64,000 nucleotides of DNA from NCBI GenBank assembly GCA_022071965.1, contig JAJVIQ010000019.1:1-64000 (forward strand), read 5' to 3'. The stretch comes from Gammaproteobacteria bacterium. Lineage in GTDB: Bacteria; Pseudomonadota; Gammaproteobacteria; JAJPIJ01. Below the pieces are notes generated by a model, which was given only the letters and a program-made list of their open reading frames with translations, did not search any database and was not told the origin of the DNA. The stretch's first letter is position 1. Every line of letters starts with the position of its first letter. The position numbers and the translations under genes are program-made. This document shows positions 51,723 to 57,500 of this stretch, one piece after another.

Positions 51723-51818
51723 GAATTGGACACACGAAGCCAACGAGGGGCCGGAGTATATTCGAATTCGCCAACTCCGATGTCCGGACTCCATGCCGAT
51801 GTACCCGCGAGGCGAAGG

Positions 51819-52738
51819 ATGAACGAGGAGAACGCGGCCGGGCACATCGACCCCATCTGCGGCATGGAGGTGGATTCGGCTGCCGGCGCCGACAGCGCCG
51901 AGCGCGACGGGCGCTTCTATTGCTTCTGCTCCACGTACTGCCTGGCCGCGTTCAAGGCCGCGCCGGCGACCGCGGCGACGGCTCGCTCCGGGCAGGCCTG
52001 CCGATCGCCGGCCACGAGCCCCGGCATGACGGTGACCGGCGTGAAGATCGGCGCGATCGGGCGCGGCGGCACGGCGCGTGATCCCGTCCGTGGCATGACG
52101 GTGAGCACGAGCACGCCATCGCGCAGCGAGCGCGACGGCACCACCCACTATTTCCGCGGCGAAGGGTGTCGGCGCAGGTTCGAGTCCGCCGTGGCGGCGA
52201 CGGCCGGGCGGGGGCGCGAGTACATCTGTCCGACGCATCCGGAGGTCATGAGCACCGTGCCGGCGGCCTGCCCGCCTTGCGGCATGGCTCTGGAGGCCGT
52301 GACAGCCGGGACCGACGCCGGGGACAGCCCCGAATGGCCTCTCCGGTCGTGCTCCGGGCCGGTCTGCCGTTCTTCGAGCGCGCATGGGCGTCCGCGCTCC
52401 GCCGGCGGGCCAACATGTTCACGCTCATCGCCATCGGCGTCGGCAACGCGGCGTTACTTGCGCGCGGCGGGATTGATGCCGCAGCGATCGAATCCCTTGC
52501 CGAGCAGGCGCGCGCGCTCGTGCGCGCCCGGCGGCTGAGCCGCGCAACGCTACGGAACATTCGCCGGAACCTGGCGTTCGCGTTCCTCTACAATGTGCTT
52601 GGTGTGCCGATTGCCGCGGGTGTACTTTATCCCTTCACCGGCATGGTGCTGTCACCCGTGATCGCGGCAGCCGCCATGTCGTTGAGCTCGATGTCGGCAA
52701 TCTTCAACGCATCGCGGCTGCAGCGGGTGCGGCTGTAA
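51819..52738 (+). pseudogene. Copper-type P-type ATPase with the catalytic core deleted and a frameshift
   Basis: The N-terminus is a YHS metal-binding domain (IDPICGMEVDSA, FYCFCSTYCLAAFKAA), then a second degenerate YHS-like part (DPVRGMTVS) and a heavy-metal binding domain ([20 protein letters not shown]). The frame changes near 52330. The next frame holds the entry to the membrane domain ([30 protein letters not shown]). It then passes straight to the very C-terminal helices ([40 protein letters not shown]). The actuator domain, the phosphorylation site DKTGT and the ATP-binding domain are missing, about 400 residues, so it cannot pump. Relict function as a metal-binding protein is conceivable. 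Confidence 0.88.
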
Positions 52739-53444: not shown

Positions 53445-54197
53445 TCAGGCCTGCGCCGCCAGCCGCTCCTTGATGATGGCCCACAGGGCCGCGAATGCGC
53501 GCCCGGGATCCGACGGCCCGGCAAAGGCCCCCACGGGTGCCTGCTCCAGCCCCATCCTTTCGATCTGGCTCGCATAGGGAATGAAGACGCGCAGCAGCTC
53601 CGCATGCTGCGCGGCGAACTGCTGCACCAGCTGGACATGCACCTGGCGGCGTCGGTCGAGCATGGAAAAGAACGGCATGAGCTCGAGGGACTCCGCTCCG
53701 CTCCGCCGCAGAAATTCAGTCAGCATGTCGTACGCCCGCAGCGAGAGGTGGGTGGGTATGATCGGGACAAGCAGCGCATCGGCGGCGTTGAACACGTTCT
53801 CGGACACCAGTGAGATTCCCGGAGGGCAATCGAGCAGGACATAGTCGAAGTCATCTACCACGGACTTCAGGATCCTGCGCAGGCGATCCGCGGAGTGCTT
53901 CTCCTCGTTCAGAATGAGGTCGAGATTGCGGTGGGAAAAATCCGCCGGAACCACGGACAGCCGCTCGTAGACTGTCGGCACTATGTTCTCCAGGATCTGG
54001 CTCCTCCGGCCAATCAACTTCTCGCTGCCTCCCTTGAGTTCCGGCTCCACGCGCAGGTAGAAGCTCGCGGCCCCCTGCGGATCGAGGTCCACGAGCAGCA
54101 CGCGCGCACCCTCCTGCGACGCTAACCACGCCAGGTTGACAGCGGCGGCGGTCTTGCCGACGCCGCCTTTCAGGTTGTAGGCGGCCAGTACGGTCAC
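53445..54197 (-). CDS. Orphan ParA/MinD-family ATPase
   Basis: The 250-residue protein begins TVLAAYNLKGGVGKTAAAVN, the deviant Walker A motif of ParA-type ATPases, and has LLVDLDPQGAASFYLRV and DYVLLDCPPGISLVSENVF. The full fold is present. No ParB or centromere-like repeat is adjacent, so it is not a plasmid-type partition system. The GTG at 54197 overlaps the CHAD gene stop (GTGA) and has GGAGAC upstream. It is the third gene of djlA-CHAD-parA. Orphan ParA proteins position cellular cargo by moving on the nucleoid; the cargo here is inferred from the CHAD partner. Confidence 0.88.
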   Translation of the reverse strand: MTVLAAYNLKGGVGKTAAAVNLAWLASQEGARVLLVDLDPQGAASFYLRVEPELKGGSEKLIGRRSQILENIVPTVYERLSVVPADFSHRNLDLILNEEKHSADRLRRILKSVVDDFDYVLLDCPPGISLVSENVFNAADALLVPIIPTHLSLRAYDMLTEFLRRSGAESLELMPFFSMLDRRRQVHVQLVQQFAAQHAELLRVFIPYASQIERMGLEQAPVGAFAGPSDPGRAFAALWAIIKERLAAQA

Positions 54198-55171
54198 GTT
54201 GCTGTCTCCTCCAACATTCTCCGGAATCTGCGGCGATTGCGTTTGCGTCCGAACTTCCGGCAGCGCTCCGTGGCCTGCCGCCTCGCCGACCGCAACTCTT
54301 CGCGTATCTCCCGGCGCCACTGGCGCATGGCGACGGCCGCTGGCGGCGCGACATCGCTCGCCTCGTTCTCCACCAGCATCTCGCCCAGCGCCCCGACCTG
54401 CACGTGCAGGTCGCACAAGTCTCCCAGATCGTCCTGCAGCCGCCTCAGCGGTCGCGTTAGCCTCGCAATTGCATCATCGCCGTACAGCTCGCTGAAGGCC
54501 TCCACCGCGTAGCGCAGCTCCTTGCCATCCTTGCGCAGGGCATGCAGCCGTCTGTATCGGCTGTCCGCGCCGATCCGGCCGCAACGCCGGCAGAAGTCTT
54601 CCCAGCCGCTGCGGAGGCTCGCGCCCGCGAATTCCCGCGCCGGCGCGGATGGCGCGCCGGAAATGCGCTGTTCATCCAGAAAGTGGAACCAGTCGGCCTT
54701 GAGCTGCCCGTATCGCGCCGAGGTCAGCAACCGGAGCAGTCCGCTGCGGGCGACCCGGCGACGTTCGGCGATCTCGGCCTGCAATGCGGCTGCCGGTTCC
54801 CTGGCCAGGGGCGGCCTGCGCTCGCCTCGGAGACGCTGGAGCAGCACGTCGAGGTCGCGTTGGCGACCGGCCGACGTTGCCATCCATGCGAAATCCCTCT
54901 GGAAGCGCTTCAATGCGCGGCCGTCCAGACATTCGCCGAATCTCCGCAACAGTGCGCGGGTGCGCCGGATGGCGACGCGAAACTCATGCAGGGGTTCGAT
55001 GTCGCGGTCATCGAGGACGCCCGCCTCGGCAACGACGAGCTGGGAGCGGTATTGACTCAATACCCCGGCGAGGACCGTGCGCATGGACTGCCCGCCGGGG
55101 GCGCGGCCGGATTCCGTTCCGCGCGGCGCCGGGCGCATGCCGCCCCGCTGCCGCGCCGCGCCCCTGCTCAC
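54194..55171 (-). CDS. CHAD-domain protein
   Basis: The 325-residue helical protein has the CHAD signature with conserved histidines and arginines: EPLHEFRVAIRRTRALLRRF at the N-terminal repeat and LHALRKDGKELRYAVEAF at the C-terminal one. CHAD domains bind polyphosphate, and CHAD proteins are known to localise to polyphosphate granules in other bacteria. The GTG at 55171 overlaps the djlA stop (GTGA), and the gene stop overlaps the ParA start in the same way. Later ATGs (residues 12 and 30) are alternatives. The C-terminus is strongly basic (KFGRKRNRRRFRRML), as if to bind an anion or DNA. Confidence 0.88.
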   Translation of the reverse strand: MSRGAARQRGGMRPAPRGTESGRAPGGQSMRTVLAGVLSQYRSQLVVAEAGVLDDRDIEPLHEFRVAIRRTRALLRRFGECLDGRALKRFQRDFAWMATSAGRQRDLDVLLQRLRGERRPPLAREPAAALQAEIAERRRVARSGLLRLLTSARYGQLKADWFHFLDEQRISGAPSAPAREFAGASLRSGWEDFCRRCGRIGADSRYRRLHALRKDGKELRYAVEAFSELYGDDAIARLTRPLRRLQDDLGDLCDLHVQVGALGEMLVENEASDVAPPAAVAMRQWRREIREELRSARRQATERCRKFGRKRNRRRFRRMLEETAT

Positions 55172-55956
55172 GCAACCCCTCGTACGGACTGTATCCGCTC
55201 GTAGGCGCGCCGTATCGCCTGGGTCCGGTCATTGGCCATGCGTATCATCTCCTCGGACATGCCCTCGCCGGCGAGCTTGTCCGGGTGGTGCCTGCTGAGC
55301 AGACGGCGGTAGGCGCGCTTGACCTCCGCATCGCTGGCATTCATCTCGATGCCCAGCGTGCCATAGGCGGATTCCAGATCATCGGCAGGCGCGGATCGAT
55401 CCGGCTGCCGTGCTCGGCCACCGCGCCCCGCCGAGGCCGCGCGCAGCAGTTGCTCGAACATGGGCCGCGGGACCCCCAGCCGAACGCAGAAGTAGCGCAA
55501 CGCGGAGTCCTCCTGCGGCGTCAGCGCGCCGTCGGCGAGGGCCGCGGACAACTGTATCTCGGTGAACAGGCCAAGCAGCATCGGGTGTCTGCCGCACCGC
55601 GCACGGAAGCGATTCAGCGTCTCGTCGAGGCGGAAGTCCGCCGCCTTGCCCTGCCGGAACATGTCCATCGCCATCTGCCGATGCGCGGCGTTGAGCGCCA
55701 TGCGATCCATGACCCGGGAGGCCATCGCGATCTCCTCCTCGCTCACGCGTCCGTCGGCCTTGCAGAGATACCCCATGACCGAGAACGTCGCCTGCAGGAA
55801 GATCGCCTGCGTGTCTGACCGTTCGCCCGTCCCGGCCGGGGCGGCGCGTTGCCGCCCGTCCATCATGTGCCCGAGTACGGCGCCCGCCACGGCGGCCCAT
55901 GGACCGCCCAGCAGGTAGCCGGCGATGCCCCCGATGACCTTTCCCAACCATTTCAC
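55168..55956 (-). CDS. djlA: DjlA-type co-chaperone
   Basis: DjlA is an inner-membrane J-domain protein that stimulates DnaK. The N-terminal membrane segment reads VKWLGKVIGGIAGYLLGGPW. A TerB-like middle domain follows (QATFSVMGYLCKADGRVSEE). The C-terminal J domain has the HPD motif in RAYRRLLSRHHPDKLAGEG. The GTG at 55956 gives the standard start and 262 residues, although an ATG 13 codons upstream exists. The stop overlaps the CHAD start, so a chaperone is tied to a CHAD protein and a ParA ATPase. Confidence 0.9.
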   Translation of the reverse strand: MKWLGKVIGGIAGYLLGGPWAAVAGAVLGHMMDGRQRAAPAGTGERSDTQAIFLQATFSVMGYLCKADGRVSEEEIAMASRVMDRMALNAAHRQMAMDMFRQGKAADFRLDETLNRFRARCGRHPMLLGLFTEIQLSAALADGALTPQEDSALRYFCVRLGVPRPMFEQLLRAASAGRGGRARQPDRSAPADDLESAYGTLGIEMNASDAEVKRAYRRLLSRHHPDKLAGEGMSEEMIRMANDRTQAIRRAYERIQSVRGVA

Positions 55957-56060: not shown

Positions 56061-57500
56061 CTACAGGCTCTCCGCGGCAAAATCGGCAAGTCTGGAGCGT
56101 TCCCCGCGCATCAGGATGATATGGCCGCCATGCCGCCAGCCCTTGAAGCGATCCACCACATAGGTCAGGCCGGAGGTGGTTTCGCTCAGGTACGGCGTGT
56201 CAATCTGCCCGATATTGCCGAGCGCGAGGATCTTCGTCCCCGGGCCCGCGCGCGTGATGAGCGTCTTCATCTGCTTGGAGGTGAGATTCTGCGCCTCGTC
56301 GAGAATGATGTAACGATTGAGAAAGGTGCGGCCCCGCATGAAGTTCAGCGATCGGATCTTGATGCGCTTCTGCAGAATGTCGGCCGTGGCCTGCCGGCCC
56401 CACTCGCCGCCGACCTCGCTTTGCGTGAGCACCTCGAGATTGTCGAGCAGCGCGCCCATCCACGGCGTCATCTTCTCCTCCTCGGTGCCGGGGAGGAATC
56501 CGATGTCCTCGCCCACGGGGATGGTGACGCGTGTCATGACGATTTCCCTGTAACGCTTCAGCTCCATGGCCTGCATGAGGCCGGCCGCCAGCGCTAGCAG
56601 CGTCTTGCCGGTACCAGCGGTGCCGAGGAGGCTGACGAAGTCCACCTCCGGGTCCATCAGCAGATTCAGGGCGAAATTCTGCTCGCGGTTGCGCGCGGTG
56701 ATGCCCCACACCGCGTTGTGCTCGCGCCGGTAGTCCACCGCGCGCTCGATCACCGCCCGGTCGCCCTCGATGCGGCGCACGATGGCCTCGAACCCCTCAT
56801 CGTCGCCGTTCTCCGGGTGATACAGGCATTCATTCGGGTTGAGGCCCGCCACGATCGGGCCGCGTATCGCGTAATAGGTCCGTTCACCCTCCTGCCAGCA
56901 TTCCAGTCTATCGCTGTGCCGGTCCCAGAAGTCCTGCGGCAGCTCCTCGTAGCCGGCGTAGAGCAGCGAGACGTCGTCCAGGACCTTGTCGCTGTAGTAG
57001 TCCTCGGCCGTTATCCCGAGAACCCGGGCCTTGATCCGCAGATTGATGTCCTTGGAGACCAGGCAAATCTGCTTGTCCTTGTGGATGTTCTGCAGCGCGA
57101 TGACCGTGCCGAGTATGGAATTGTCCGGCCTGTTGCCGGGTAGCGGCACCGGCAGATCCTCGGTCAGCGAACTGGTCTGCAGGTAAAGGCGGCCGCTTGG
57201 AGACGCGCCATTGAAGCCGCCATTCTGATTCAGGGGACCCGGTACGGGCAGGCCCTGCTCGATGGCATTCTTGTCGGCACCGCCGATCAGATCATCGAGG
57301 AACCGGCTGACCTGGCGCGCATTGCGCGAGACCTCCGATGAACCTTTCTTGGCATGGTCCAGCTCCTCGAGCACCACCATCGGAATGAAGAGGTCGTGTT
57401 CCTGGAACCGGTAGATTGCGGTGGGATCGTGCATCAACACGTTGGTGTCGAGCACGAAAAACCTGCTGCGGTCGATATCCGGCGATGCCTTCTTTGCCAT
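56061..57500 (-). CDS. PIN-PhoH family protein
   Basis: The 479-residue protein combines an N-terminal PIN nuclease domain (residues 12-160, with FVLDTNVLMHDPTAI) and a C-terminal PhoH helicase-like ATPase domain. Walker A is LLGTAGTGKTLLALAAG near residue 293 and Walker B is RYIILDEAQNLTSKQMKTL. This is the PhoH2/YlaK-type arrangement of an RNA helicase-nuclease. It may act in RNA turnover. It stands alone between djlA and bcp. TCGGCATTT-type regulatory features are not seen. Confidence 0.92.
   Translation of the reverse strand: MAKKASPDIDRSRFFVLDTNVLMHDPTAIYRFQEHDLFIPMVVLEELDHAKKGSSEVSRNARQVSRFLDDLIGGADKNAIEQGLPVPGPLNQNGGFNGASPSGRLYLQTSSLTEDLPVPLPGNRPDNSILGTVIALQNIHKDKQICLVSKDINLRIKARVLGITAEDYYSDKVLDDVSLLYAGYEELPQDFWDRHSDRLECWQEGERTYYAIRGPIVAGLNPNECLYHPENGDDEGFEAIVRRIEGDRAVIERAVDYRREHNAVWGITARNREQNFALNLLMDPEVDFVSLLGTAGTGKTLLALAAGLMQAMELKRYREIVMTRVTIPVGEDIGFLPGTEEEKMTPWMGALLDNLEVLTQSEVGGEWGRQATADILQKRIKIRSLNFMRGRTFLNRYIILDEAQNLTSKQMKTLITRAGPGTKILALGNIGQIDTPYLSETTSGLTYVVDRFKGWRHGGHIILMRGERSRLADFAAESL

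Follow-up and report, generated by a model that had tools for sequence, protein, structure and literature searches.

The window is a stretch of 64,000 nt of gammaproteobacterial DNA, and three genes on its minus strand follow one another between positions 55956 and 53445. The first, djlA (55956-55168), matches the NCBIfam DjlA equivalog model above the cut-off (3.1e-86) and encodes a protein with an N-terminal hydrophobic segment, a TerB-like domain, and a C-terminal J domain with HPD. The second (55171-54194) encodes a CHAD protein (PF05235, 7.1e-50) of 325 aa when read from a GTG. The third, parA (54197-53445), also has a GTG start and encodes a 250 aa ATPase (AAA_31, 1.1e-33) of a CHAD-linked ParA clade. 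As the initial annotation had it, two stop/start overlaps join the three genes: both junctions, djlA/CHAD at 55171-55168 and CHAD/parA at 54197-54194, read GTGA on the minus strand of the window sequence. The ribosome-binding site of the parA start is strong (GGAGGAG); that of the CHAD GTG is weaker (GAGGGG). Upstream of djlA, on the same strand, lies a gene for a PhoH2-type PIN-PhoH protein (56061-57500). On the plus strand, positions 51726-52738 hold the remnant of a heavy-metal P-type ATPase gene, probably CopA-like, broken into short frames. Its counterpart in a congeneric genome (L166:4707-7298, minus strand) is an open frame of 864 aa; two separate parts of it align with the window copy, from which the middle is absent.

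The CHAD/parA overlap is secure, but functional use of the djlA/CHAD overlap is doubtful because of the codons that lie behind it. In a comparison of the window genome with the congeneric genome G001, dN/dS is 0.08 for parA, which is under the strongest purifying selection of the three genes, 0.19 for djlA, and 0.37 for CHAD when counted from an in-frame ATG at 55087 onward. The 28 codons from the CHAD GTG to this ATG give a near-neutral value of about 0.89, and their differences by codon position (5/10/8) show no excess at the third position; 28 codons are, however, too few for a decisive call of the start. A short N-terminal tail is also present on the CHAD proteins of the sister genus. From this sequence comparison, the true start of CHAD may be the ATG at 55087, which would yield a protein of 297 aa. 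If so, the overlap with djlA would not couple translation.

The initial annotation had proposed that CHAD is an adaptor linking polyphosphate (polyP) granules to ParA, with DjlA/DnaK affecting assembly, and thus treated djlA-CHAD-parA as one unit. The djlA/CHAD overlap is present in both genomes of the genus, which favors a three-gene unit in which DjlA/DnaK controls assembly of a granule-positioning complex; the near-neutral evolution of the overlap region speaks against it. Moreover, at the loci examined (those fetched in the genome search span 1.5 kb per side), no genus but this one has djlA beside CHAD-parA. The sister genus lacks both djlA and parA there: its genes run phoH-CHAD-MFS-queG, with phoH conserved upstream of CHAD. 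Consequently, djlA probably joined the locus within this genus, and the sister genus probably lost parA. A unit of all three genes is therefore very improbable. DjlA was rejected as a member of the core module, and the role once given to it is not supported; it is probably a lineage-specific bystander outside the core mechanism.

The window genome (3.56 Mb in 39 contigs) contains six ParA-type matches and just one CHAD gene, the window copy. Its sole ParB gene, at C9:63797-64078, adjoins a different ParA gene at C9:62856-63383. The ParA of the window was thus rightly described as an orphan: at its locus there is no ParB encoded beside ParA, the arrangement that defines ParABS, and the distant ParB is not a likely partner since it pairs with another ParA.

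Relatives of the window ParA in other families of the class are 45-52% identical to it and are set off from other ParAs by a clear score gap; most of them have CHAD immediately upstream. In an even sample of the class (232 Gammaproteobacteria genomes, at least 90% complete), ParA of this clade is present in 33 genomes as 34 genes, and CHAD lies directly upstream on the same strand of 28 of these genes, in 21 families, as judged by comparing coordinates by hand; the loci that were fetched give the same picture. A scan of named genomes gave 80 clade ParA loci, at about 30 of which CHAD is the next gene upstream, in the same orientation. Confinement of the pair to the window genome would have refuted the adaptor idea; instead, the pair is conserved in at least six phyla (Pseudomonadota, Actinomycetota, Acidobacteriota, Desulfobacterota, Planctomycetota, and Lentisphaerota). 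Many of the pair-bearing named genomes are metagenome bins, and cultured strains are present as well; carriers include Rhodothalassium salexigens DSM 2132, Prauserella muralis DSM 45305, Sedimenticola selenatireducens BK-1, and Lentisphaerota zth2. The 4-nt CHAD/parA overlap also recurs in other genomes, in about 23 of 30 same-strand pairs across phyla (18 by script, plus five by reading junctions at which the script had chosen a later start).

Overlaps of 4 nt are common in bacterial operons generally, and the sister genus, like many other genomes, retains CHAD in the absence of ParA. Both facts would suit an ordinary conserved operon, whose two products are useful under the same conditions and have no physical partnership. 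Such an operon is nevertheless quite improbable here, since the pairing survives over six phyla while nearly all other neighbors change. Indeed, no neighbor family other than CHAD occurs in more than eight loci, the runners-up including SixA, PPK1, and small CYTH proteins. No fusion of CHAD to ParA was noticed at the loci examined.

In a tree of 133 sequences, the clade stands apart from Soj/ParA and from ParC-like proteins with 99% SH-aLRT support. On this tree, at least 15 changes in CHAD adjacency are needed, which implies repeated loss or gain. In other classes of the phylum, CHAD is adjacent in only four of 28 newly fetched clade ParA loci, and the unlinked loci among them, where examined, appear to stand alone. 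Among 22 genomes with an unlinked clade ParA, 15 encode CHAD elsewhere and seven have no CHAD; PPK1 is found in 20 of the 22, including all seven without CHAD. In Halothiobacillus (two genomes) and a relative, the clade ParA gene directly follows a gene for an NtrC-type response regulator. The idea of one alternative neighbor for the unlinked members was rejected because no gene connects the lineages. A search for PHA synthase near unlinked members found no PhaC-type active-site motif in the neighboring proteins of the called loci. At eight Bacteroidota loci (Chitinophagales and their kin), a conserved gene for a 243-aa esterase-like protein follows the clade parA. At several loci of another class (among L198-L216), by our own reading, truA and RnfH-like genes lie divergently upstream of the unlinked clade parA, and the RnfH-like gene of L207 encodes a long, repetitive Lys/Ala-rich tail.

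The occurrence of ParA alone or beside unrelated genes in several lineages, such as ntrC in Halothiobacillus, raises the possibility that the cargo is something other than a storage granule, for example polyP-bound chromosome regions or a cluster of a polyP-using enzyme, with CHAD as just a tether. The genomes with unlinked ParA that lack CHAD fit this as well. Such a cargo is improbable, given that PPK1 is present in all seven of those genomes and that, in other bacteria, CHAD proteins are found at polyP granules (cited in PMC6537752 and PMC9239181).

The ParA of the window carries the deviant Walker A motif KGGVGKT, and the signature K10, the Walker K15, D37, D39, and D123 are invariant across the clade. 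About 95% of members retain Arg183, which lines up with the Soj DxR arginine. The position of a second Soj arginine (211) is replaced in the clade, and position 184 is basic in more than 90%; we take both Soj arginines to be DNA-binding residues. From these residues, clade ParA proteins are likely to bind DNA. At nineteen positions the clade differs from other ParAs, for the most part in the same way in linked and unlinked members; this suggests a single function throughout the clade.

On the CHAD side, mutating His253, Arg256, Arg260, Arg296, Arg418, or Tyr419 of the Chlorobium protein CtCHAD lowers polyP binding (PMC6537752). All six contact residues are identical in the window protein (H62, R65, R69, R105, R220, and Y221) and in all 54 aligned CHAD rows. 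Among CtCHAD residues on the back side, R385 is retained, but not K386 or K389. The predicted structure of the window CHAD (mean pLDDT 84.9) is closest in fold to the CHAD-polyP complex of Chlorobium tepidum, 6qva (TM 0.80/0.84); residues 1-23 are predicted to be disordered and are Arg-rich. We infer that the window CHAD binds polyP. A C-terminal region of the F..F...LF type was rejected as a ParA-specific CHAD motif, as it also occurs in CHADs without ParA.

Most ParA-linked CHADs are extended at the N-terminus by about 230 residues, and 42 of 54 have a DSFDW-type motif in this extension. None of four long ParA-linked CHADs that were scanned has a CYTH family match in Pfam, and the EXEXK metal site of an active CYTH/TTM triphosphatase occurs in none of 54 long ParA-linked CHADs. 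The predicted fold of the N-domain of a long linked CHAD (pLDDT 90.4) matches TTM enzymes and YgiF. Judging from this model, the N-domain appears to be a TTM domain that has lost its activity and is retained for binding. It is absent from the window CHAD and from its sister-genus relatives. The ParA-linked CHAD of Rhodothalassium (L064:6124-8001) ends in a long Lys/Ala-rich C-terminal tail, similar to histone-H1-like nucleoid tethers such as AlgP.

Clade ParA co-occurs with CHAD and with polyP synthesis. Of 33 ParA-positive genomes, 30 have CHAD and 31 have PPK1; of 199 ParA-negative genomes, 44 and 111 do, respectively (Fisher p 2.6e-14 for CHAD and 1e-5 for PPK1). These tests treat genomes as independent and ignore phylogeny, and thus overstate the association. 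Both ParA-positive genomes without PPK1 (G115 and G222, of one genus) have PPK2; a CHAD-parA pair of this genus is found at L165. The ppk1 gene lies at a distance of 1.7-7.4 kb from six of the 34 parA genes, when about 0.15 would be expected by position alone, and in one genome (G172; L151 on G172:C2) parA and ppk1, which share a strand, overlap directly without an intervening CHAD. The window genome has PPK1 and four PPK2-domain matches. Two of these domains share one 529-aa open frame (C27:7259-8698); with the two other PPK2 genes and PPK1, the genome is richly equipped with polyP genes.

The overlap of parA with ppk1 in G172, which does not involve CHAD, and the nearby ppk1 genes elsewhere would be in keeping with the main rival to positioning, a regulatory ATPase of polyP metabolism. 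Such a ParA would act as an ATP-driven switch, its ATP form binding CHAD or PPK1 and turning granule synthesis or breakdown on or off. A TTM-fold domain that lacks EXEXK in 54 of 54 linked CHADs is what might be expected of a regulatory pseudo-enzyme, and the linked CHADs have no obvious charged N-terminal peptide of the kind that activates ParA. A switch of this type would, however, have no need of the conserved, putatively DNA-binding R183, and ParA relatives of known function are positioners. It is possible but unlikely.

The reading that we prefer, with a probability of roughly 0.55, is that CHAD and ParA together form a two-component module that positions cargo in the manner of ParA/MinD systems, with the polyP granule as cargo and CHAD as adaptor. 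This reading builds on the presence of the genes, the conservation of the pair, its linkage to ppk1, and the conserved polyP-contact and ParA catalytic residues. In this model, CHAD would coat the granule, holding polyP in its basic cavity, and nucleoid-bound ParA-ATP would hold the CHAD-coated granules. The granule-bound adaptor would then trigger ATP hydrolysis, clearing ParA locally. Such clearing would space granules along the nucleoid and give each daughter cell a share, in the way that McdAB handles carboxysomes. Contact between ParA and CHAD, binding to the nucleoid, stimulation of the ATPase, and the spacing of granules are all steps that we infer, and the open literature yielded no experiments on any CHAD-ParA pair. 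Thus, the adaptor idea of the initial annotation survives in part: the pair is conserved and is tied to polyP synthesis and to polyP-binding residues, but a part for DjlA is not supported. The broader proposal, that an ancient, dedicated ParA subfamily in several phyla positions and partitions polyP granules through CHAD adaptors, usually fused to a dead TTM domain, is about evenly balanced.

Several observations count against positioning. CHAD adjacency is scarce in other classes of the phylum (the four of 28 new loci), seven of the 22 genomes with an unlinked clade ParA have no CHAD at all, although all seven have PPK1, and the sister genus keeps CHAD without ParA. The second of the Soj arginines, at position 211, is replaced. 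In addition, ParA partners normally activate the ATPase through an N-terminus that is charged and disordered (PMC10241942), but the modeled long linked CHAD is disordered just in residues 1-3 and folded from about residue 4, and the disordered, Arg-rich N-terminus of the window CHAD evolves neutrally and may not be translated.

Among known systems, McdAB offers the nearest parallel. It too combines a gene for a ParA-type ATPase with a neighboring gene for a cargo-binding protein, lacks ParB, and carries a cytoplasmic body, and the gradient mechanism proposed is identical. The differences are that the adaptor here is CHAD, which is unrelated to McdB, that the cargo would be polyP, and that solved McdA chains match the ParA profile at 1e-14, versus 4.8e-36 for Soj-type proteins; the tree was built without McdA. 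AlgP of Pseudomonas aeruginosa arranges polyP granules with respect to the nucleoid (PMC9239181, PMC13052382), as is proposed for CHAD-ParA, but it is a single histone-H1-like DNA tether without an ATPase. The CHAD phosins (Chlorobium tepidum CHAD, E. coli YgiF, and Streptomyces PptA) have the same fold (6qva, 6qv5, 6rn5) and the same polyP-contact residues. They differ in that the CHADs described here are linked to a dedicated ParA and in that most ParA-linked members have a TTM-fold N-domain without EXEXK, which the Pfam CYTH family misses; the window member has lost this domain.

The initial annotation knew of no description of the three-gene unit, and this holds only in part. In Acidithiobacillus, folD-ppk-parA-CYTH/CHAD has been reported as a conserved neighborhood in the context of cAMP signaling (PMC6416229) and of copper resistance (PMC10892726). 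As in the window, parA and CHAD stand together there, but the window pair is not next to ppk1. No positioning role was proposed in those reports. Acidithiobacillus provides the only mention of CHAD-parA found in the open literature; subscription journals and preprints lay outside the search and may hold earlier proposals.

For the placement of polyP granules, a 2025 review names only AlgP, gives the need for ATP as 'unknown', and states that the granule-placing proteins of Caulobacter are not identified (PMC13052382). If the positioning model is true, CHAD-ParA would be the first system in which ATP drives the positioning of polyP granules. The conserved pair provides concrete genes and culturable organisms with which to approach ATP-driven placement and the question of granule inheritance. 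A ParA/MinD clade with no known cargo would gain a candidate as well, and this clade may include an ATPase of Halothiobacillus neapolitanus. That protein was listed as a 'nitrogen metabolism' ParA/MinD ATPase and left unstudied in a paper that reports genetic tools for the species (PMC10241942). From two other Halothiobacillus genomes, in which the gene adjoins ntrC rather than CHAD, it is probably a member of the clade.
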